Below are positions 1,006-22,577 of a stretch of DNA of 22,577 nucleotides, piece by piece. Position 1 is the stretch's first letter. Each line of letters starts with the position of its first letter. Both the position numbers and the translations under genes were made by a program. Below the pieces are notes generated by a model. The model ran no database searches, was not told the DNA's origin, and saw only the letters and a program-made list of their open reading frames with translations. The DNA is from Physocladia obscura (Eukaryota; Chytridiomycota; Chytridiomycetes; Chytridiales; Chytriomycetaceae): assembly GCA_027596945.1 (NCBI GenBank), contig JADGJH010000252.1, forward strand, positions 1 through 22,577, written 5' to 3'.

Positions 1006-4000
1006 TTAAAATTTGGTGAATCCTTGCGACTGTTGCGTATTTCCATAATCTTGGCTCATCATATATCCACTGCCACCGCCCCCATAAATATCCCCTTGAC
1101 TCTTGTAATCATCTGCGAGATTGAATTCAAGGCGATCGCTTTGCGAAAACGCCTGCAACGGCTGCGACAGCAATGACTCACCACCAAAACCAACCGCAGC
1201 TTGGGAATTCGGCTGCGAGAAGAACGATTGCTGAGAAAATCCTGTTTGTGACATTTGAGTCTGTCCGTTGCCACTACGGCTGAGTTTTGGAATTGGTTTC
1301 ATCATTGACTGTGAAAACGAGGCCGCAGAGTTTTGGGTGAGCATGATTGAGTCGACTTCGTATCCGGATTTAAAGTACCCATTGACTTTCGGGCCACCCA
1401 AGTCGAGACCCGCTATTCCTTGTGATAATCCAGCAAACGCGTTCTTTGGAACTCCTTGTTGTTGCTGCTGCTGAAGAGGAGGATATGCAGGCATTGGCCC
1501 AACTTGCCGAGCTATAATCGCAAAGACAGTTCAAATATAAAAAACAAAAAAACAAAAAAAACAACTTACAATCATAAAATCCTACAGGCCCGACAGGCGC
1601 CGCAATCCCCGGACCAACAGGAATTCCCCGAATAGGCGCACCACCTGCCCGACTTCCCCAAACCATTTCAAACCGTTTCCCCTTTACCTCGGCAAAAGTT
1701 TTCCGTGGCTTGGCAAAACTAATTCCCGATACATGCATGTTATTCAATGGCCCTTCCATCAACAAATTGTTATTTTTATACTCCATCAGCAGTTCATACC
1801 ACAGCGGATGTTTCGCCAGAACTTTTGCATTCCCAAGAAGGCAAACCCCATATTTCGCTCGAGTCAGTGCAACGTTCAATCGTCGCGGATCGCTCAAGAA
1901 CCCGATCCCTTGATGATCATTCGACCGTACACACGACACGATAATATAATCCTTTTCTCGGCCCTGGAACGCATCCACCGACGCAATCTCAATCTCCTTA
2001 TACAGCTCTTTTTTCAATGTCCCTGTGAACTGCATGTAATTTACCAGAAACGCACGCTGCCCTTCGTATGGCGTGATGACACCAATCTGGGCCGGCGCGA
2101 TTCCAGCCTTCAAGAACCGCGTCACGATTTTCTCGCAATTAGAAGCCTCTGTGCGATTTAGATAGCTGGTTCCCGACGCTGAGATTTCTTCTTGGCCCGA
2201 TGATGAGAGAAAGAACATTGGTGTTTCGGCTACTGGCCATGGGAAGTCAAGGTTTTTTCGCACGCGGTCGTTCATACCCACCCCATCTTGCAACGAGCCT
2301 TCGTAAAACATGTTTGAGGGGAAACTAGAAAGACATGGATGCATGCGGTACTGCACTTCGAGTCGTAACGGGCGGTGTCCGAGAATTACCAGCCGTTCAA
2401 ACAAGGACTGCGACAATCCTGCTTTTGCGGCTTTCTTATTCATAATTACAGGCCCCAGTTGCTGATGATCGCCGATCAAAATCGCCTGTTTACATCCCAT
2501 CACAAGGGGGATCAAACACTCGGGCTCGGCGGACTGCGTGCTTTCGTCAATCAGGACGGTTTTGAAACTGAATTTTGAAAGCCGCGGGTCTCCTGCTCCA
2601 GCACAAGTTACGCAGATTACATTTGCATGCATCAATATCTCACGCTCTGCTTGTTTTTTTAGCGTCATGTATCGTTTCTCGTCGCGTGGCCTCAATTCGC
2701 CGAGCTCGTTTTTGAGTTTGATGAGTTTTTGGAATTCTTGATTCGTGTCGTTGTTGTTGACTTGTTCGTGGAGCGTTAAAAATCCGACTGGCGAGTCGAG
2801 CTCTTCGCGAGATTTAGCAGTCATGCGGACAACTTTGAGTCCCGTTTTGTGAATTTTTTCTGTCAATTGATCAACAGCCACATTTGATGGCGCGCATACT
2901 AAAATTTGCCCCTTGTTCATTTTTGCTAAATGGTAAACAATTGTTGCAGATGTCACCGTTTTTCCAGTTCTAAATATAAAAATAAGAACCACATAAAAAA
3001 CAGATGCGAAGCTCAGAATATATTTACCCAGGAGGGCCTGTTTTAAATTATGATGTGTTTAGAAACAATTTTTAAAGAATAAAAACAACACCAAATCAAA
3101 CAAACCTTGAATCAACGATAACGGCCTTTGAATAGCCTGCTTAATGGCAGTAACTTGCGAATGATTCAAGTCTGGCAAATTTGGGGCCGTGAATTTTTTA
3201 GGCAGGTTCGAGTTGAGTGTTACTGGATCAACGTTATGTCCCAAAAGACGGTGGTACTAAAAATAAAAAATTAATAAAATAAAATAAAATATAAAAGGAA
3301 TAAATAAATAAACTTACGAGGTATCCAGAAACCGACGTTTCATCTACTGCAAATCGTTTCATTGCATTTTGCATTCTAACATACAAACGAAGTTAATAAA
3401 ATGTCCAGATATTTTCTATTTATCACATACCGATCAAAAGATGTGGACTTCCAAACAAAATCAACAGTAAAGTTGAGCGTGCATTCAGTAGGCGCATGGC
3501 TTTGCTTTCGAATTTCTAAAGCAACTTCATCAGAAACAGCTGGAAAAAAAGGGATTAGTTTTCCTTAATATCTATGTAAAAATACTCAACAATTTGGAAT
3601 CTTGATAACATTTCCTTTACTCTCCCACTCTCGACTCAATTCTCCCCGATACCTGAGCAATAACTCATCTCCAACCGCAAGCTTCACTTCTCCTTGCTCC
3701 AGCTTCAGCAACGTGAAATACGCCACAAGTTTCTGATTCAATCCAACATCCCACCGCACAACGACATTATCCTGAGTTTGCGCCTCCTTCATTTTCCGAT
3801 CGTGTTCAGCCTCGAGCGCTACAAGCGGACCAAAAATATTTTGATATTGATAAGCGTCTTCATATTGCGCTTGCACAGGCAACGCTTCGATTTCTTCAAT
3901 TCCGCCATTTCCGGAGCGGTCGATTTTGTGGAGATCGTCGACGGTAGCTTTGCTGTCGCCGGATGCCCAGATGTTTTCAAGGGTAGAAATTTGACTGGCA

Positions 4001-5735
4001 CTAATATGACGACTGCGCATGACTTCAGTTTCGGTGGGGTTTTTGACGAGCCAGGGTAAAAACGCCTTGTCGCTAATAAGTGGGACCCATTGTGACAGGT
4101 CCCAGTTTGCGTCTTTTGAACTTGGCGTCGATGCGCAAGGTTGTCTGGAAGAGAAGTAACGAATTAAATTTTGGGTTTTTGTTTTATTCGCTTCTTTCTT
4201 TTATTTTTTATTTTTTATTTTTTCCCTCATTCAGATTTAGTGATCTTAATGTTTCTACTTCGCTTTGTTCATTTTTAGTTTTTACTTCACCTGCACAATA
4301 GCACAACAACGGTATCACTTTTCGCAGGAATAAATCCCAGCAAAAACACATTTCGCGATCCGCAAAGATAGCATTCCAAAACAGTATCGCCAAGCGGTCC
4401 ATCGGCATGCAGAACAACCTCCTTGTGCTTTGATTTGACTAAATGTGTCACGATATGCGATCCGCCTGTCCCACTTCCTCCGTGTACGCTATGTCCGACG
4501 CCACGGCCATTGCAGAACCATTTCGAGCATTGTAAGCATTTTACTACGGTCGCAGGAGAATGGACGCCGCAATATCTGGTTTTGTTGCATGAGTGTCAAT
4601 TGAACTCTATTTTTTTTTGTTCTTTCTCGCTTCGTTCCATTTGCTTGTTTTGTTCACTCGCTTCACTTGGTGAAAAATATATTTACTTGCACGCATGCTC
4701 AGGAGCTGCCATAATATCGGCCTCTGAATTTCTCTCCCGAATTGGAGCAAGATACCGCTTCAACGAAGACGCAGACGAATCAGCAGCAGCCACAGATTCG
4801 GCAAGCAGCCGCACGTCATCGTTTTTAATACGATCGACAAGCTTAAAGTTGCTACGCGACCAGTTGCTTGCAAAGCCGTCATTGAGGAGTTTGATGGCCT
4901 GGTTGTGAAGGGAGGCGAGCGCGTCGTGCTGCGGGGGCTTTGCGGAGTCGGGGTTGCGGAACTGGTCGATCAGCAGGGCGGAGTCGGAGCGCAGGTGGAT
5001 TCTGTCGTAGCCCTCGTTGCGCGCGGCGTCGATGGCGAGCACAAGCGCGTGGTAGTAGGCCTCGACGAGGGACGCCGTCTGCTGCACCACACGCCGCGCC
5101 ACGTCGACGACAACCGTGGCGCCCTCGACAATACGTATGGCCACGGCGCCGACGTGCAGTCCGGCCTCGGCGCCGTCGTTGGCGTCGGCACACACCGCCG
5201 AGAAGAACACATGGCAGCGCAGGAGCCCGTCGTCCAGATCCCCATCCGCTGTTTAAAGCGTTTGTTTGTGTTCAATCTTCGTGTCAACAATCCTTTCAGT
5301 GTAGCTCAGCAACATAAACATACCGTCATCATCATCATCGTCGTCGTCGTCATTGTCATTGCCATCGTCATTGTATCCATCGCCATTGTCGTCGTTGTCG
5401 CCCTCGCCTTCCTCTCCTTCCTCTCCAAGATTGTTGCGTCGCCTCCGCCCGTGTTTGCGCGCCTCCACACCCTCCGAGCCCTGCGTCAAGTTGAAATTCT
5501 GACTCAGCTCAAACCCAACACTTTCACCATCAATATTTTCATTGTCATCACTGTCACTCTCATCGTTTTCATCATCATCATCGTCATTGTCCGAGTACTC
5601 GTCCATCTCCGTTTGTGTCTTTTGCGTCTGCGGAGTGAATGCGTAAGGATCGTATTCGTCATTGCTGTCGTCAATACTCTGCGACGGCTCAACATCCACA
5701 AACTCCGAAAGTTTCTTCGGGTTGCTACTGCTCAT
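1006..5735 (-). CDS. UPF1: UPF1/NAM7-type RNA helicase with an inserted RNase H-like domain
   Basis: ATP-dependent 5'-3' RNA helicase (SF1), the central factor of nonsense-mediated mRNA decay. Exons: 5735-5324, 5248-4687, 4575-4291, 4144-3591, 3539-3431, 3375-3318, 3256-3106, 3037-3028, 2969-1570, 1511-1006; phases agree throughout and give about 1348 residues, versus roughly 1120 in human UPF1. Domain order: acidic, SQ/TQ-containing N-terminus (1-137); RNase H-like domain (about 148-320); CH zinc-binding domain starting EHACKYCG (321 on) with the KWFCNGRG segment; 1B and helicase region with GPPGTGKT (711-718), DEST (855-858), [13 protein letters not shown] (921-925), DAFQGREKD and LNVALTRA; then a Q-rich tail (about 1181-1348) with around ten SQ dipeptides. 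SQ/TQ clusters are phosphorylation targets in animal UPF1; use here is inferred. The start is the first ATG of exon 1; the frame extends upstream only to a TTG. UPF1 identity is certain; the RNase H part is argued separately. Confidence 0.95.
3028..3037 (-). other. 10-nt microexon of UPF1 (Walker A)
   Basis: The helicase Walker A motif is split over three exons. The upstream exon ends after the first base of the first glycine codon (3106). A 10-nt exon then supplies the rest of G, two prolines and two bases of the next glycine. The main helicase exon starting at 2969 supplies the last base and T-G-K-T. The microexon is preceded by AAACAG and followed by GTAAAT; its flanking introns are 68 and 58 nt. 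Without it the invariant GPPGTGKT cannot be made and the frame breaks. Confidence 0.93.
4687..5248 (-). other. UPF1 exon 2: RNase H-like domain
   Basis: This single exon encodes UPF1 residues 138-324 and ends with the EHAC that begins the UPF1 zinc domain. The protein has the order expected of an RNase HI or plant-type (RVT_3) fold: a first strand with D159 (AVCADAND) followed 12 residues later by [18 protein letters not shown] with E200, at the same T-x4-E spacing as family members; [10 protein letters not shown] with D226; and a final [12 protein letters not shown] with D315, matching the usual R-x-x-N-x-x-A-D-x-L-A ending. All four catalytic acidic positions can therefore be placed. The first half of the exon is about two-thirds G+C, much richer than the rest of the gene. 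Fold assignment is by eye; the region around 267-300 is longer than usual and its alignment is uncertain. Confidence 0.72.
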
Positions 5736-6125
5736 TTTTGGTTGCAAAAAATTGGAAAAAAATGTTTGAGCAAAAGAGCATCCAATCTGCCCTGCCACTG
5801 CCAAGAAATAAGAATTAAAGAAAGGAATAATATTTTATAAATACAGTCAAACTCCATCTGGACTAAATTCGATTAAATTTTAAATAGAATGTTGTTAGGG
5901 TGGCCTTTGAAGTAGAAGATGTATCTTAGGCAAGTCAAAAGGTCGTTCAAGAGTGATCGTGGTGGTCGTGTGATGTCAGACTTTTATCAAGCGCGAATGA
6001 ACAAGGAAGTGTATTTGCCAGTTTCGAAAGGAGGCCGTGCGATGGAAGGAAAAACTTCAAAAAATAAATAGAGGATTTAACAGTGGTTTCATTATTCAAA
6101 GATTTGTGCTATACTTTATTAATTT
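5736..6125. other. Intergenic: UPF1 5' flank and UNC93-A 3' flank
   Basis: About 390 nt between the UPF1 start and the stop codon of UNC93-like A, both on the minus strand. It should hold the UPF1 promoter and the UNC93-A 3' untranslated region. No gene, repeat or clear regulatory motif was recognised. Confidence 0.6.
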
Positions 6126-7627
6126 TTATAATATAGAATATGTGCCCATAATAGCCCCAACTATCAAAGTGAGAAACAAAGTCGACCAAATTCGCATGTC
6201 TGGGAGACCATTTTCTGTCAACGTGTATTTTGAACTGAAGAAAGCAATGGCGGCACCAACACTGGTGTGAAATTTATAACCGGCGAAAGCTTGGCTCATT
6301 TCGGAAGATTGAAACGCGTTCCCAACAAGTTTTTGGGACTGGTTAACGAGGATCTGAGTGAAGTCAATTAAAATACACGTAAGTCAGATAACAAAACAAA
6401 AAAAAAACAAAAACATACCGCATTCGTGGATCCAAAACAGATATACACAACTGCCAACAACCCCAAATTATTTTCAGGCGCGCCAAAATTCAACAACCCC
6501 TGGCAAATCAAGTACACAAAAAAGCACGAAAAAACCATTGGTTTAGATCCAAACCGATCCGTCAGTCTCCCGCCAATAAACGCCGAGCTTGTCGACACAA
6601 TTCCCAACGCGACCCGCATATACAATTTGTTTGCCAGATCAATGTTTGGCGAATCCGTGTGGATAAACAAAGGAAGCGATCCGTTATAAAACGCTTGCTC
6701 AAACGCCGTGATTATATTCAACGGTAATAACAATAGCATTGACCGCGTCAAAAGTATTTTCAAAGTCTTTAGATATTTAGGCGTACTAGGAGATGCGGCA
6801 GCGCTGATAGCAACTGACAGATTCGCAGGATTAAACGGCTCGGGACGGAAAAAACACAAATATATGAGAATTAGCGGGCCTATCGAGCTAAACGCTGTGA
6901 TTGCTTTGAAAACAGCAATTTTGTCAATGTTTGCTTGTAGTAACGATAATGTGAGGAGTGGGCCGAGTATTCCTGATACCCACATCACGCCAAAAAATAA
7001 ACCAGAATATCGCCCGAGTGTTTGGGGTGTTGAACATTTCGTTACGTAAACTCTTGAAAATTATGCGTTAGTGCAAAAAACGTATAATATATGTTATATA
7101 TACCCTTGGCTTGACCAAAGAACACTCGCAGATATACCTGATAATAACGCACCAGGCAGTAAAACGGCAAGCTACTCAAAAAAAAAAAAAAAAAAGAGTT
7201 CATATGACAGATCCAAGAAAAGCAAAGCTCCAAACCTGAATTTTTTCGTTTTGATCAAACTGCAACGCCAAAACATTGCTCGCGAAATAAACAGGATAAC
7301 CCAAAGATGAAACAAACAGGCCCAATCTTGGCCCAACTTTATCAACAATCGCCGACGCGCAAAAGAGGTTTGACAACGCAAAAACAGTGTAGATTATTGT
7401 ATTTGCGTTGAATGAGACTGCCGGCGGCAAGACAGTGGAAGATATTGACTGTGGAACCAATTAAAAAGATTAGATAAAAATTTAAGTACCGCAATCGTTG
7501 TGAATCCCGAGAAGATAAAGAAGAAAGAGACTCCGAGGATCCAGATATCTCCGATTCTGTGGTTTGGATTGGCGGGAGATGTTGACAGTGGCAACAGCGG
7601 AGTTTGCTCGGCTGTTTGTTGTACCAT
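6126..7627 (-). CDS. UNC93-like membrane protein, copy A
   Basis: Multi-pass membrane protein of the UNC93 branch of the major facilitator fold; animal relatives act as transporters, channel regulators or trafficking factors, so the substrate here is unknown. Exons 7627-7490, 7448-7236, 7171-7104, 7052-6419 and 6353-6126 give 426 residues. Family features are the first helix after NHRIGDIWILG, the ALSNLFCASAIVDKVGPRLGL helix pair, GYPVYFASN, the ALLSGISASVLW helix followed by the G-x-Y of QGVYVTK, and GGRLTDRFGSKP in the second half. A hydrophilic loop after FRPEPFNP divides two hydrophobic halves. The ATG at 7627 is the first in frame; the frame upstream opens only with a GTG. It has an inverted paralogue at 12520-14010 with identical exon lengths for exons 2, 3 and 5. 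Confidence 0.88.
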
Positions 7628-12519: not shown

Positions 12520-14010
12520 ATGGCGGCATCTGAGCGCGATGCATTACTGCCTTTCACCGCATCTCTCGCCAATAATTCAACTCACCGAATTGGGGACGTC
12601 CGCATTCTTGGTGCAGCTTTCTTTTTTGTCTTCTCTGGATTCACGACGATCGCAGTAAGATTTCGTATCGTAATATACTTTTGTTCATTCATTATACAGT
12701 CAATATCATCCACTGTACTTCCTACAAGAGTCTCATTTGATACTACTGCAATCTTCTATATTATTTTCGCATTTTCAAATCTTTTTTGGGCTTCAGCAAT
12801 TGTTGACAGCATTGGATCACGATTGGCTCTGCTTCTATCATCTCTGGGATATCCTGTGTATTTTTGGTGCCATGTTCTTGCGTTGCAGTCAGAATATGAT
12901 GAAAAAATACAGGTTGAATTGTAAAACTAAATAGTAATATAATAATTTCTATTTTCAATAGACAATGATGTTAATACCAGGAGCTTTGCTAGCTGGAGTA
13001 TCCGCAAGCGTGATTTGGGCCGGCCGCGGGTTAGTCTAAGCATAATATATTGATTTATGCTAAGGAATGTCGCTAGAGTATACGTGTCAAAATGCTCGAC
13101 GCCGCAAACTCTGGGCTGGTATTCCGGCCAATTCTTTGGTATTATGTGGGTTTCAGGAATTCTAGGCCCATTCTTGACATTATCGCTACTCCAGGCAAAT
13201 ATTGACAAGATCTTAGTCTTCAAAGCCATCACTGCATTCAGTTCAATTGGGCCTCTTCTCCTTGTTTATTTATGCTTCTTTCGGCCGGAGCCTTCAAATC
13301 CCTATTACCTATCAATATTTGTCGACATCTCAGTTGCGCCTGTTTCATCGTTTTCTTCAACAAGGGAAATATCTTTCAAAACGGTGAAAATTTTATTGAC
13401 ACGTACAATGATTTTATTGCTTCCTTTGAATATTATTTCTGCTTTTGAGCAAGCCTTTTACAACGGATCTCTACCGCTATTTATTCATACTGATTCAGCA
13501 AATTTGGATCTTGCAAACAAACTCTATATGCGTATTGCGTTGGGATTAGTATCCACAAGCACTGCGTTTGTAGTGGGAAAACTGACTGATGTATTTGGAT
13601 CTAAGCCCTTGGTTGTTTTTTGTTTTATAGTGTATATATTTTGCCAGACGTTATTGAATTTTGGTGAACTTGAGAACAATCTACCGTTATTGACAGTAGT
13701 TTATGCTTGCTTTGGACTGACAGATTCGGTACTTGTTTTTGTAAAACTTTTTTTTGATCCCTTTTGAACAATTTATTACCAGATTCTGATCAACCAATCC
13801 CAAAAATTAATCGGAAATGCGTTTAAGTCTGTAGAGATGAGCCAAGCGTTTTCGGGATATAAATTCCATACAAGCGTGGGATCAGCTGTTGCATTTTTCA
13901 GTTCAAAATATACAATGACAGGAAATGGACTTCCAGACATGAGAATATGGTCTAGTTTATTTTTTGTTCTAATTACTGGTGCGATTTTTGGGACATTCTC
14001 GATAATATAA
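12520..14010 (+). CDS. UNC93-like membrane protein, copy B
   Basis: Paralogue of the minus-strand copy at 6126-7627, same UNC93/MFS fold. Exons 12520-12654, 12700-12912, 12962-13029, 13077-13728 and 13783-14010 encode 431 residues. Exons 2 (213 nt), 3 (68 nt) and 5 (228 nt) match copy A exactly in length, and all four introns are at the same codon positions and phases, while the intron sequences have diverged. Conserved blocks include HRIGDVRILG, ALLAGVSASVIW, GVYVSKCSTPQTLG, MWVSGILGP and MSQAFSGYKFHTSVG. The last exon follows the acceptor TTACCAG, and the stop is TAA. The start is the first ATG, followed by a short polar N-terminus as in copy A. Both copies look intact, with no internal stop. 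Confidence 0.88.
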
Positions 14011-14728: not shown

Positions 14729-14800
14729 ATGAAAAACTAAGAAATACAGGACAGTTGAATTCAGTCAAAATCAAAAGGCACCAAGAAAGGTGGACAAAGA

Positions 14801-15892
14801 ATGAAGCGAAAATTGTTGAGTAACAACGAAAACGAAAACAATGGAAACCAAACCAGACTTCAAGCGACATGTCCAATCTCCGCCGTTTCGCTTTTACTTG
14901 CAGCATCATCGCAACAGCGCGCGTTTCTGAGTCTGCGCGGATTCAGGCAACAACCCCGTATGTGTTTGTTCAGTATTACAATATCCTCACCCATTTTTAT
15001 TATCGCAGCATCATTTACTGAAAAGTCCTGGGCGTGCGGGTTCAAAAATGCACAACTGCTTATAGCCGCGGCCTTGCAAATCCCATCGTTTCGAACTTCG
15101 CTTGCTTCGACTTTCGAATCTATTAGTCCGCAAATCTCGTTTCTTCCACAGCAACCGTACGTTCCGTCAATACCCTCGATTCAGTTTCTCATTGAACGTG
15201 CATGGTCGCTTGGTTTCGACCCTGTTGGCGCCGCACAGCTAGATTCTCATATATTGTCAACAAAGAAATGGATTGGCGCTTGCGAAATATACGCTTTTTT
15301 CCATTCTATCGGAATTAAAGCCAACACTTATGATTTTCGCAACGCATCTGGACCGAATGCGACGCATCCTGTGCTTCTTGATTTCGTCGAAGCTTATTTT
15401 GACTCATCTCTTGACGAGTTTTTGAATACTTGGACTCTTGAAAAGGCTACAACTCCTGTGCTGTTATCCCCCCTTATATGGATGCGAAACACGACAGATT
15501 ATATTGCTGGGAACTTTATTCATGACACAGAGAAAATGCCTTTGTACTTTCAATACCAGTTAAGCTTATTGTGTTTTGTTCCATTCAATCGTTTCTGAAT
15601 TTGAAATAGGGGGCACAGCCTCACAATTATTGGAATTGAAATTCTTAAGTCTGGGTTACGCAATTTACTTGTACTAGATCCAGGAACTAAAATACCCCCG
15701 AAATTATGCGTGGGAATTGATTTATATTTGCGGAGTAGCGATGCAACAGAAAAGATGTTAAATGTGTTTAGATTTGGAGAACATCTTTTGCGTAAGCATC
15801 CATCTTACCAAATTGTAGAAGTGGTTGGAAAGTATGATCCAAAGTCTGATTCCGAAGGAAGGAAAGTGTTCCGAACCAAAAGACTTACATAG
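14801..15892 (+). CDS. ZUP1/UFSP-type cysteine protease (peptidase C78)
   Basis: Papain-fold peptidase of family C78, which contains UFM1-specific proteases and the K63-ubiquitin-specific deubiquitinase ZUP1 (fission yeast Mug105 is a fungal member). Exons 14801-14957, 15009-15558 and 15610-15892 give 329 residues. The catalytic cysteine is C62 in SWACGFKNAQLL, the histidine H238 in QGHSLTIIGIE (rebuilt across the second intron) and the aspartate D259 in LLVLDPG. The conserved block WIGACEIYAFFHSIGI and the segment SIQFLIERAWSLGFDP are also typical of ZUP1-like members. Neither zinc fingers nor a ubiquitin-binding helix is apparent in the short N-terminus, unlike human ZUP1. All triad residues are present, so activity is expected. 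ZUP1-like deubiquitinase is preferred over UFM1 protease from the sequence around the active site, but this is not decisive. Confidence 0.87.
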
Positions 15893-18154: not shown

Positions 18155-20039
18155 ATGAAACAACTGTTTTCAGCTACGAACATTGTGCAGGAGGCGATTC
18201 ACGGGTAAGAAACAAGAATACTGGTACGGCAAAATAAGAATAGAATATTCATAGAGATTTCACAGGGCTGTTTGCAACGGAGCGCATCCAGCAATTCACT
18301 CTACAGCCACCGGACAAATTGTTTACCGCATTCATGACGACAAAAATGGCAGCAAAGGAAGGAATCGCGTTCGCATTATTAGCGGCGGTGGATCCGGACA
18401 CGAGCCGGCACATGCAGGATTTGTTGGAGAAGGAATGCTTGACGCAGCGGTTGCTGGCGCAGTCTTTGCTTCACCTTCATCAGCCCAAGTCGCGTCTGCC
18501 TTAACGCTGCTTTCACACAACAACAGCAACAATAACAATAATAATCAGAATAATGATGTTCTTGTAATTGTTAAAAATTACACTGGCGACAAACTCGCGT
18601 TTGGTCGTGCCGTCGAACGTTTCAATTCGATTTCTTCAAATTCTGCAAGAGCAAAAATGCTTATTGTCACCGATGACTGTGCGATTCCCAAATCACGCTC
18701 GCTTGCTGGAAGACGTGGTCTTGCCGGCATTATTTTGGTTTACAAAATTGCTGGAGAACTTGTAAGACGCGGTGACGTAACGTTGGAGCGCGTCTATAAC
18801 CTTGCCAATCAGGTTTCTCAAAAAATTGGGACAGTTGGTATGGCTCTCAGGGACGATGGAAAATACGAAATCGGGCTCGGAATTCATGGCGAGCAAGGGT
18901 ACTCTATTGAAGAAATATATTCTGGCAGTGATCTTGCCAAAAAACTGGTTGATATGATTCTTATTCCGAAGCCAGACTTTTTTTCAATTTCGCTCCCGCA
19001 AACAGCGCATCTTGTTGTTTTGATCAACAATCTTGGAAGCACCACAGACCTCGAAATGAATGCTTTCCAAAGCCATGTTTTAAGCTACATCAAAAAAACG
19101 TTTCCACATCTTGCATCGATTCGAGTTATTTCAGGAAGATTAATGACTTCCTTGCACATGCATGGACTCTCATTGACTCTTTTTGCAGACCCCACTGATG
19201 AAATGCTTGAATTACTTGATATAAAGCCAGCGCCAGAATGCCAATGGCCCGGCGTTGTCAAATTGGACATGTCTTTATTCTACGGAACTGCCTCCACATT
19301 TTTACAAACATCTACCAATACACCAACAAAAAATTCCGCAATTCTTAAAACTGGCCCGATTCTCCCAGCAATCGCCGCCGAAACATTCCAAAAATGTCTC
19401 TTGGCAGCTGCAAACGCTCTCATAAGCGCCGAGCCATTGCTAACAAAATACGACACAATTGTTGGAGACGGCGACTGTGGGCATACCATGAAATCCGGTG
19501 GCACTGCGCTATTGAAAGCAGCAGCAACATCAACAGAAACAACCACGCAAATTTCGTACACTTATCCAGTATCAGCTTTGCATCAGATCAGTGAAATTAT
19601 TGAAAATTCTATGGGTGGAGCTTCAGGTGCTTTGTATTGTATTCTCGTTGATGCAGCAGCTGGATACCTTGTTTCCCTTAATTCTTCAGATAAAGTTAAT
19701 TTTAATGATTGGCTACATGCACTTGAAGCTGGAATTGACGCAGTAAAAAGATACGGTGGCGCAAAAGCTGGTGATTGTACAATGATTGATTCACTGGAAC
19801 CTCTTCTTGCCTCCTTGCAAGAAACTGGCACAAAATCAACGACAAAGGTAGGAGATTGGACTGACGCTGTTGTATTGGCTGTTGAAAAGGGGGTTGAAAA
19901 AACAGCAGAAATGGATTCAGCACGTGCAGGTAGATCAAGCTATATTGGAGCAATTTTGTCAGGAACTCCGGATCCTGGAGCAGTTGCGGTATTGGTGTGG
20001 GTAAAGGCAGTTTTATCTGTGTTGAAAAATGCTGCATGA
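18155..20039 (+). CDS. DAK: Dihydroxyacetone kinase (DAK), ATP-dependent
   Basis: Cytosolic enzyme phosphorylating dihydroxyacetone (and glyceraldehyde) with ATP, detoxifying dihydroxyacetone and feeding glycerol carbon into glycolysis. Exons 18155-18204 and 18266-20039 (61-nt intron, GTAAGA...CACAG) encode 607 residues, the usual size. The N-terminal DhaK domain shows GGGSGHEPAHAGF with H62, D125 in NYTGDK and the histidine expected to bind substrate covalently, H224, in GIHGEQG (most relatives have HGEPG). The C-terminal DhaL domain has the Mg-ATP motif GDGDCGHTM (about 417-425), MGGASGAL (466-473), GDCTMIDSL and the ending TAEMDSARAGRSSYIGA. An asparagine-rich run (about 102-113) lies in a DhaK loop. 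The first exon gives MKQLFSATNIVQEAIHG, matching the family N-terminus, which fixes the start. Confidence 0.96.
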
Positions 20040-20984: not shown

Positions 20985-21281
20985 GCAACTGCAATGGTTG
21001 CAATCAATCTGGCTGAAAATCAGTACCAGCAGCAGCGCAATTTATTTGCCAACAGAAATATTTAATCAAACACTTTGATAAAGAAGAGAATTATGAACAT
21101 GAAAGGCAAGAAGATCGCTAACAGAATTTAGCCACGCAGACTAATTTGTGACACAACAAAGCTTTAAATTACAATATCCAAGTTAATTTTATTTTTCTAG
21201 AATTGCTGGGATGTGATTGAGACCGGTTTTGCTGTTCAAATAATTCAAACTATTTTGTGATAATTTAATTTATCTTGGTTG

Positions 21282-21659
21282 ATGTTTGGTTGTGTACGGC
21301 GGAGATTAACAACAGCGGCAACGCGGGTTGCGGCATTGACAGCGGCAGAACGCAGCGAGCACGTGGCATTACTTGAGTCACGCGGGTGGCGGCACGAGAA
21401 GGGGCCGGCGCAGGAGGCGCTGGCGAAGCAGTTCCGGTTCAGCGACTTTGGGGCTGCGTTCGGGTTCATGGCGCGCGTGGCGGTTGCGGCCGAGCGCGAC
21501 GGCCACCACCCCGAGTGGGCCAACGTGTACGCCACCGTCGACGTGCGGCTGACGACGCACGATGCCGGCAACGCGCTGTCCATGAAGGACGTGCGCCTCG
21601 CCACGCAGATGGACGAGTACGCCGCCGCGCTGCTGGGTGGTGGTGGCGGCACGTTGTGA
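21282..21659 (+). CDS. Pterin-4a-carbinolamine dehydratase (PCD/DCoH)
   Basis: Dehydrates 4a-hydroxy-tetrahydropterin during recycling of tetrahydrobiopterin after aromatic amino-acid hydroxylation. It is a 125-residue, apparently intronless gene; family members are about 100-120 residues. Key sequence: [25 protein letters not shown], then the active-site block [23 protein letters not shown] with H75, H76, P77 and H93-D94. The N-terminus [15 protein letters not shown] is basic and lacks acidic residues, which could be a mitochondrial targeting peptide (inferred). Start is the ATG at 21282. The coding sequence is about two-thirds G+C, far above its surroundings. The next gene begins 35 nt after the stop on the same strand. 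Confidence 0.93.
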
Positions 21660-21694
21660 GAAGCAAGATTAATAAACTTGACGCATAAACAAGA

Positions 21695-22577
21695 ATGTTT
21701 TCGCTGGGCGTCGGTGCGCCGCACGCAGGCGGCCGGCTCGCTTTTGCCGTTGGCGACGCCGACTCGCCCGCGCTGCCCGCCACGCCGTTTGTCCTCGTGC
21801 GGCGTGGCGAGGCGCTGTTCTGCATCGAGGCCGTGTGTCCGCACTCGGGCGGCCCGCTGGCCAACGGGCTCGTCGAAGACATCGAAGACGTGCTCGTCTG
21901 TCCGTGGCACCACTTCCGCTTCAGCCTCCGCTCCGGCGCCTGTTTCGACGACCCGCTCCACGCCGCCCGCACCCTCGACGCCGCCCTCGGCAAGCACGGG
22001 CACGTGACCCTGCAAGACCGCTCCCGTCCAAACCTCTTTCTCGTCGACGGCAGTCTGAGTCACGTGGCCTCTCCCGGTCCCGTGACCACGCTAAGCAGTC
22101 ATGTGTCTCCGACGAACGACTCCCTTCTTCTCCTTCCCAACATTGGCGATGGTCGCGTTTGGTCTCTCGTCGACTGGTCTATTCGTGTCCTCAACGAGCC
22201 CGACCCCTCCCTTAAAGTTCAACTGACTCAACACATTTGGCACCTGTGGAACAATGATCCTGGTCAAATTCCCGATATTGGTCACGGCTCTCCCCCCAAT
22301 GAACCAGCCCGCGATAATTCTGTTCAAAAAGTTGCTCATAACCGCACTAGGAGGATTAAAAAAGGAAGTGGCTTGGTATGTAAATTGAGCAAAGGAAAAG
22401 TATTTTTTCTGAGTACAGCGATAAATAGTATTTCAGTGAAGCGAGCAAGAAAAAAAAAAAAAAAAAAGTGATTAATGACAAAAAAACCAAAAATAAAAAT
22501 AAATTCCCAGCCCGACCCTTTTAGACCAAAATAAAAAATACAACAAACCACCAACACACAAAAAAAAAAAAAAAGAA
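21695..22577 (+). CDS. Rieske [2Fe-2S] protein with DUF455-like extension, 3' end missing
   Basis: Residues 1-125 form a Rieske domain of the ferredoxin or dioxygenase-component type: CPHSGGPL with C48 and H50 and CPWHHFRF with C69 and H72 are the four cluster ligands. A linker of about 25 residues follows. From about 150 the segment GRVWSLVDWSIRVLNEPDPS...LTQHIWHLW...PPNEPARD resembles the start of DUF455, a ferritin-like family; the helices carrying its metal ligands would be in the next exon. The first exon runs 21695-22375, where KKGSGL meets a donor GTATGT. The intron reaches the right edge, so the gene is truncated. The ATG at 21695 is the first in frame. The 5' part is strongly GC-rich, dropping to ordinary composition past about 22020. 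Rieske identity is secure; DUF455 is a moderate call. Confidence 0.82.

Follow-up and report, generated by a model that had tools for sequence, protein, structure and literature searches.

The window, a 22,577-nucleotide stretch of DNA from the chytrid Physocladia obscura (assembly GCA_027596945.1, contig JADGJH010000252.1), encodes on its reverse strand the RNA helicase UPF1/NAM7, which serves in mRNA quality control, with an in-frame RNase H-like domain directly preceding the zinc-binding CH domain. The fusion is real and is common to three genera. As the original prediction had supposed, no description of a UPF1 with such a domain was found among the papers listed (mostly titles and abstract openings), though a precomputed Pfam label already shows the fusion for the proteins of Physocladia and Chytriomyces. 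We give a probability of about 0.5 to the reading that the domain is a lineage-specific pseudo-RNase H, which may have a binding or regulatory role next to the CH domain, a function that we infer.

An RNase H-like domain in the UPF1 gene

The 10-exon model of the gene yields a protein of 1348 amino acids with no internal stops, and this protein is identical, letter for letter, to an NCBI record (P0001) named 'ATP-dependent helicase NAM7 [Physocladia obscura]'. The Pfam matches to the CH domain (PF09416; 230.5 bits, residues 322-480), the 1B domain (PF18141; 112 bits) and both RecA-type helicase halves (171.7 and 202.1 bits) are all above their cut-offs. The CH domain family matches this locus alone in the 21.8-Mb assembly, making it the sole UPF1 found there. 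The splicing proposed earlier for exons 1 to 3 fits both the spliced model and the NCBI protein (Table 1). Exon 2 is 562 nucleotides long and its skipping would therefore break the frame, while retention of intron 1 introduces a stop. A separate neighboring gene was considered and ruled out by the spliced model, by the exon that the RNase H-like stretch shares with EHAC, the first residues of the CH domain, and by the break of frame on skipping; the same had been argued in the original prediction, and the presence of the fusion in three genera agrees with it. Exon 8 (3028-3037, reverse strand) is 10 nucleotides long and lies inside the Walker A coding sequence.

The domain scored above the curated cut-off of the RVT_3 profile (PF13456; 21.6 bits), both within the whole protein (31.5 bits) and as the open reading frame of the exon (35.5 bits). 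The predicted structure superposes on RNase H structures over model residues 9-162; the best of five models had a mean confidence (predicted local distance difference test, pLDDT) of 74, the range being 60.8-74.0. Profile and fold together place the domain in the RNase H fold, as had been proposed from the letters of the sequence. A tail that is conserved across the three species (residues 295-319) joins the core to the CH domain. The domain is net negative, with a pI of 5.0-6.0.

Several features of composition were seen in the same region. Third-position GC content is 0.895 over residues 143-237 versus 0.484 in the helicase, and positions 4801-5200 form an island of GC 0.645 in a window of 40% GC. 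In 4704-4811 (reverse strand), a 12-residue segment of the tail resembles a second copy of the 11-residue strand 5/helix E motif; the likeness may reflect duplication or chance. Opposite exons 1 and 2 runs an antisense stop-to-stop frame of 370 codons (4728-5840, forward strand), probably a by-product of repetitive Asp codons and GC-rich sequence.

Distribution of the insert

Among the best 120 of 1378 matches to residues 138-420, coverage of the query reached 97% or more in three: the Physocladia protein, that of Chytriomyces confervae (58% identical) and that of Siphonaria sp. JEL0065 (53% identical), all of the family Chytriomycetaceae. The other 117 covered at most 54%. RVT_3 scores in the three species were 31.5, 39.2 and 21.9 bits, all passing, with Siphonaria barely so. 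A survey of orthologues, suggested in the original prediction, thus found the insert at the same place in UPF1 of two further genera, Chytriomyces and Siphonaria, which makes it more than chance. UPF1 of Dinochytrium and Phlyctochytrium, of the same order and the family Chytridiaceae, gave no RVT_3 match up to an E value of 10. In the 104 of 122 returned proteins with the CH motif located, the stretch before it had a median length of 99 residues and exceeded 163 in the three Chytriomycetaceae alone. Two further candidates were set aside: P0005, which on reading its sequence owed its high score to a duplicated CH domain, and P0004, which covered 36% of the query and was judged without reading its sequence.

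Comparison of the three proteins places the insertion into the N-terminal region of UPF1 before the divergence of Physocladia, Chytriomyces and Siphonaria. With three genera sampled, it most likely took place within the Chytriomycetaceae, after their split from the Chytridiaceae. In a separate observation, the CH-domain loop following KWFCN (exon 3, 4291-4575) is 15 residues long in the three Chytriomycetaceae and 6 residues long in 95 of the 107 UPF1s with the loop located; a few further fungi likewise show longer loops.

Catalytic positions

The original prediction held that all four catalytic acids were present, as D159, E200, D226 and D315. We find that the canonical positions are S154, Y202, D226 and R284, so that D226 alone is common to the two sets. 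A HMMER alignment with Halobacterium RNase H1 (4E19) pairs D75 with S154, the Glu with Y202, the second Asp with D226 and D189 with R284. Alignment by hhalign to a canonical RNase H (P0121) gives the same Y202, D226 and R284 with strand 1 shifted, placing A158 at the first Asp; MAFFT with P0121 likewise sets A158, and not D159, at this position. The first Asp is thus missing in both strand-1 registers. Superposition ranges for HIV reverse transcriptase, human RNase H1 and 4E19 (75 and 189), read as ungapped near their ends, align the first and last Asp with model residues 18 (S154) and 148 (R284); here we take these Asp residues to be 443 and 549 in the HIV enzyme and 145 and 274 in human RNase H1. 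In the E. coli superposition the first Asp (10) fits and Asp 134 falls on model residue 151 (protein residue 287, Ala), a range that does not settle the position of the last Asp.

Across the three species the four columns read S/A/A, Y/Y/Y, D/D/D and R/H/V. One of the four acids of an active type 1 RNase H (Asp, Glu, Asp, Asp) is therefore kept, and the other three are replaced in all three species. Because these metal-binding acids are gone, the domain should not cleave RNA. D159, E200 and D315 were rejected as catalytic acids, since HMMER, hhalign, superposition and MAFFT indicate other positions. The D159 column (D/E/E) is acidic throughout and lies within a gapped loop; those of E200 and D315 read E/E/H and D/E/Q. 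D315 (model residue 179) is beyond the structurally matched stretch, at a pLDDT below 50, and the tail around it, RERNSEAD, resembles what we take to be the C-terminal motif of RNase H, which may explain why it was misread.

Resemblance to other RNases H

For all three domains the best NCBIfam match was the haloarchaeal RNase HI model RnaseHI_Halo (NF041306), at 35.4, 28.5 and 53.9 bits. As these scores are far under the equivalog cut-off of 300, the term 'archaeal/bacterial type' describes what the domain resembles and does not identify a donor. Free-standing relatives were sought with a profile (best 8000 candidates scored), which gave one weak match, P0121, at an E value of 0.48. A search with the domain of the Chytriomyces protein recovered that protein and, at an E value of 4.2e-3, a single reverse-transcriptase protein from a plant; this search was insensitive, because the known Physocladia and Siphonaria proteins were not returned. 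Pattern scans of prokaryote and viral contig collections gave 109 and 38 pattern matches, none of them a relative. In its own genome RVT_3 matches this locus alone and no paralogue of the domain was found, the next match being at an E value of 0.73. Elsewhere in the genome is an RNase H1-like gene with canonical motifs for the first Asp, the Glu and the second Asp.

Possible functions of the domain

In the reading that we favor, an archaeal/bacterial-type RNase HI domain was inserted into the N-terminal region of UPF1, has kept its fold while lacking three of the four metal-binding acids, and would serve in docking or regulation beside the CH domain. The CH domain binds UPF2, eRF1 and eRF3 and is part of the helicase switch (PMC4749658, excerpt). 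RNase H-fold domains are described as regulating a helicase, in the case of PRPF8 and BRR2 (PMC8894380, excerpt), and as docking on eRF1 (PMC4917968, excerpt). The acidic pI weakly favors a protein partner. More tentatively, the captured RNase H may have become, in one chytrid family, a pseudo-nuclease control domain of UPF1, the central helicase of nonsense-mediated decay, docking on eRF1 or UPF2 or gating the switch between CH and helicase domains; if so, UPF1 would have a further built-in control beside the CH domain. The genome also has UPF3-type and EST1-type matches and one MIF4G match, and a search with the Upf2 profile PF04050 gave no match, a result that does not demonstrate absence.

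Against the two relatives, the helicase is 92-94% identical and the CH domain 87-89%, with lower values for the tail (40-56%), the exon 1 region (residues 1-142; 46-49%) and the core (33-40%). As judged from these alignments, the domain is fast-changing yet keeps its frame and fold signature, with positions such as Y202, D226 and N280 invariant in the three species. Some points weigh against a pseudo-RNase H with a binding or regulatory role. The divergence of the core, set against the helicase, also suits weak constraint. The structural model is built on just three sequences, and one of the records, that of Siphonaria, is labeled UNVERIFIED_CONTAM. In both relatives the residue opposite D159 is E, which leaves a slight possibility of an unusual cluster of acids near strand 1.

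A serious rival, though rather unlikely, is the hybrid- or RNA-binding module that the original prediction also raised: the domain would still bind RNA-DNA hybrids or structured RNA without cleaving them, steering UPF1 to R-loops or transcripts. This would suit the retained fold with one catalytic Asp, as well as the promotion of R-loops at breaks by human UPF1 (PMC8219777, excerpt), but the net negative charge is weakly against nucleic-acid binding. Of equal weight as a rival is the reading of the domain as a neutral passenger, decaying in a flexible N-terminus with little function: the lost catalytic residues and the low identity of the core relative to the CH and helicase domains (87-94%) would be expected of it, whereas the retention of frame, fold signature and junction in three genera, and the invariant positions, would not. 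An active RNase H tethered to UPF1, perhaps with a metal site rebuilt from D159 and D226, is very unlikely. D226 is indeed retained and D159 stays acidic, but the first Asp, the Glu and the last Asp are replaced in every species and neither E200 nor D315 is kept as an acid; the broken site, together with the separate RNase H1-like gene, makes catalysis unlikely. The nuclease for R-loops or nascent transcripts envisaged in the original prediction is thus unlikely. Least probable of all is an error in the gene model that would leave the domain out of the mature message: the splicing is a prediction, but one exon encodes both the domain and EHAC, its skipping would break the frame, and the junction is identical in records from three genera.

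Features of the locus and neighboring genes

Table 1. Positions of the UPF1 gene and its parts in the window.
Feature	Position	Strand	Basis
UPF1/NAM7 gene, 10 exons, 1348 residues	1006..5735	-	Spliced model, protein-record identity, Pfam domains
Exons 1-5	5735-5324, 5248-4687, 4575-4291, 4144-3591, 3539-3431	-	Spliced model
Exons 6-10	3375-3318, 3256-3106, 3037-3028, 2969-1570, 1511-1006	-	Spliced model
Exon 1, acidic N-terminal region, residues 1-137	5324..5735	-	
Exon 2, residues 138-324: RNase H-like domain, tail, first CH residues (EHAC)	4687..5248	-	
RNase H-like core, residues 146-294	4779..5225	-	Pfam, HMM alignment, superposition, hhalign, MAFFT
Core-to-CH tail, residues 295-319, holding D315 (4718-4716)	4704..4778	-	Outside structural matches
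Canonical catalytic positions	S154 (5201-5199), Y202 (5057-5055), D226 (4985-4983), R284 (4811-4809)	-	
Exon 3, first part of CH (UPF2-binding) zinc domain	4291..4575	-	PF09416, residues 322-480; own-genome match
Exons 4-10: rest of CH, 1B, RecA helicase domains, Ser/Gln-rich C-terminus	1006..4144	-	Spliced model, Pfam

Elsewhere in the window, two similar frames for transporters of the major facilitator superfamily (MFS)/UNC-93-like type, at 6371-7060 (reverse strand) and 13054-13764 (forward strand), form an inverted gene pair; the second is below the Pfam cut-off. The forward strand also carries a peptidase C78-like frame (14759-15595) and, at 18255-20036, a long frame for dihydroxyacetone kinase (Dak1-Dak2). 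Within a second GC-rich island (21201-22000; GC 0.595-0.680), a frame for a pterin-4a-carbinolamine dehydratase precedes a Rieske frame.

Comparison with known systems

The UPF1 helicase is highly conserved in eukaryotes. None of the five InterPro accessions in a survey of UPF1 is, we presume, that of an RNase H; the survey took in 32 species. It gave these five as the predicted InterPro domains of UPF1 (PMC4749658, excerpt). Like other UPF1/NAM7 helicases of superfamily 1, the Physocladia protein has the CH domain, the 1B domain and both helicase halves; it differs in the insert of about 150 residues before the CH domain and in the longer CH loop. With archaeal/bacterial-type RNase HI (Halobacterium RNase H1, 4E19; RnaseHI_Halo) the insert shares its fold and its best sequence match, but it retains just one of the four catalytic acids and its scores reach 28.5-53.9 bits against a cut-off of 300. 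Prp8 offers what may be a functional analogy, since its RNase H-like domain regulates an RNA helicase (PMC8894380, excerpt); unlike the UPF1 insert, it does so in trans, its target being Brr2 of the spliceosome. The RNase H domain of the Moloney murine leukemia virus reverse transcriptase docks on eRF1 through this fold and affects nonsense-mediated decay; it is viral, and the transcriptase is reported to stay active with eRF1 bound (PMC4917968, excerpt). We liken the two domains by fold. To these the chytrid protein would add an example of how a nuclease fold fused to a helicase can lose its catalytic site. A conserved insert abutting the zinc domain for UPF2 and release factors would amount to a natural experiment in the re-regulation of UPF1.
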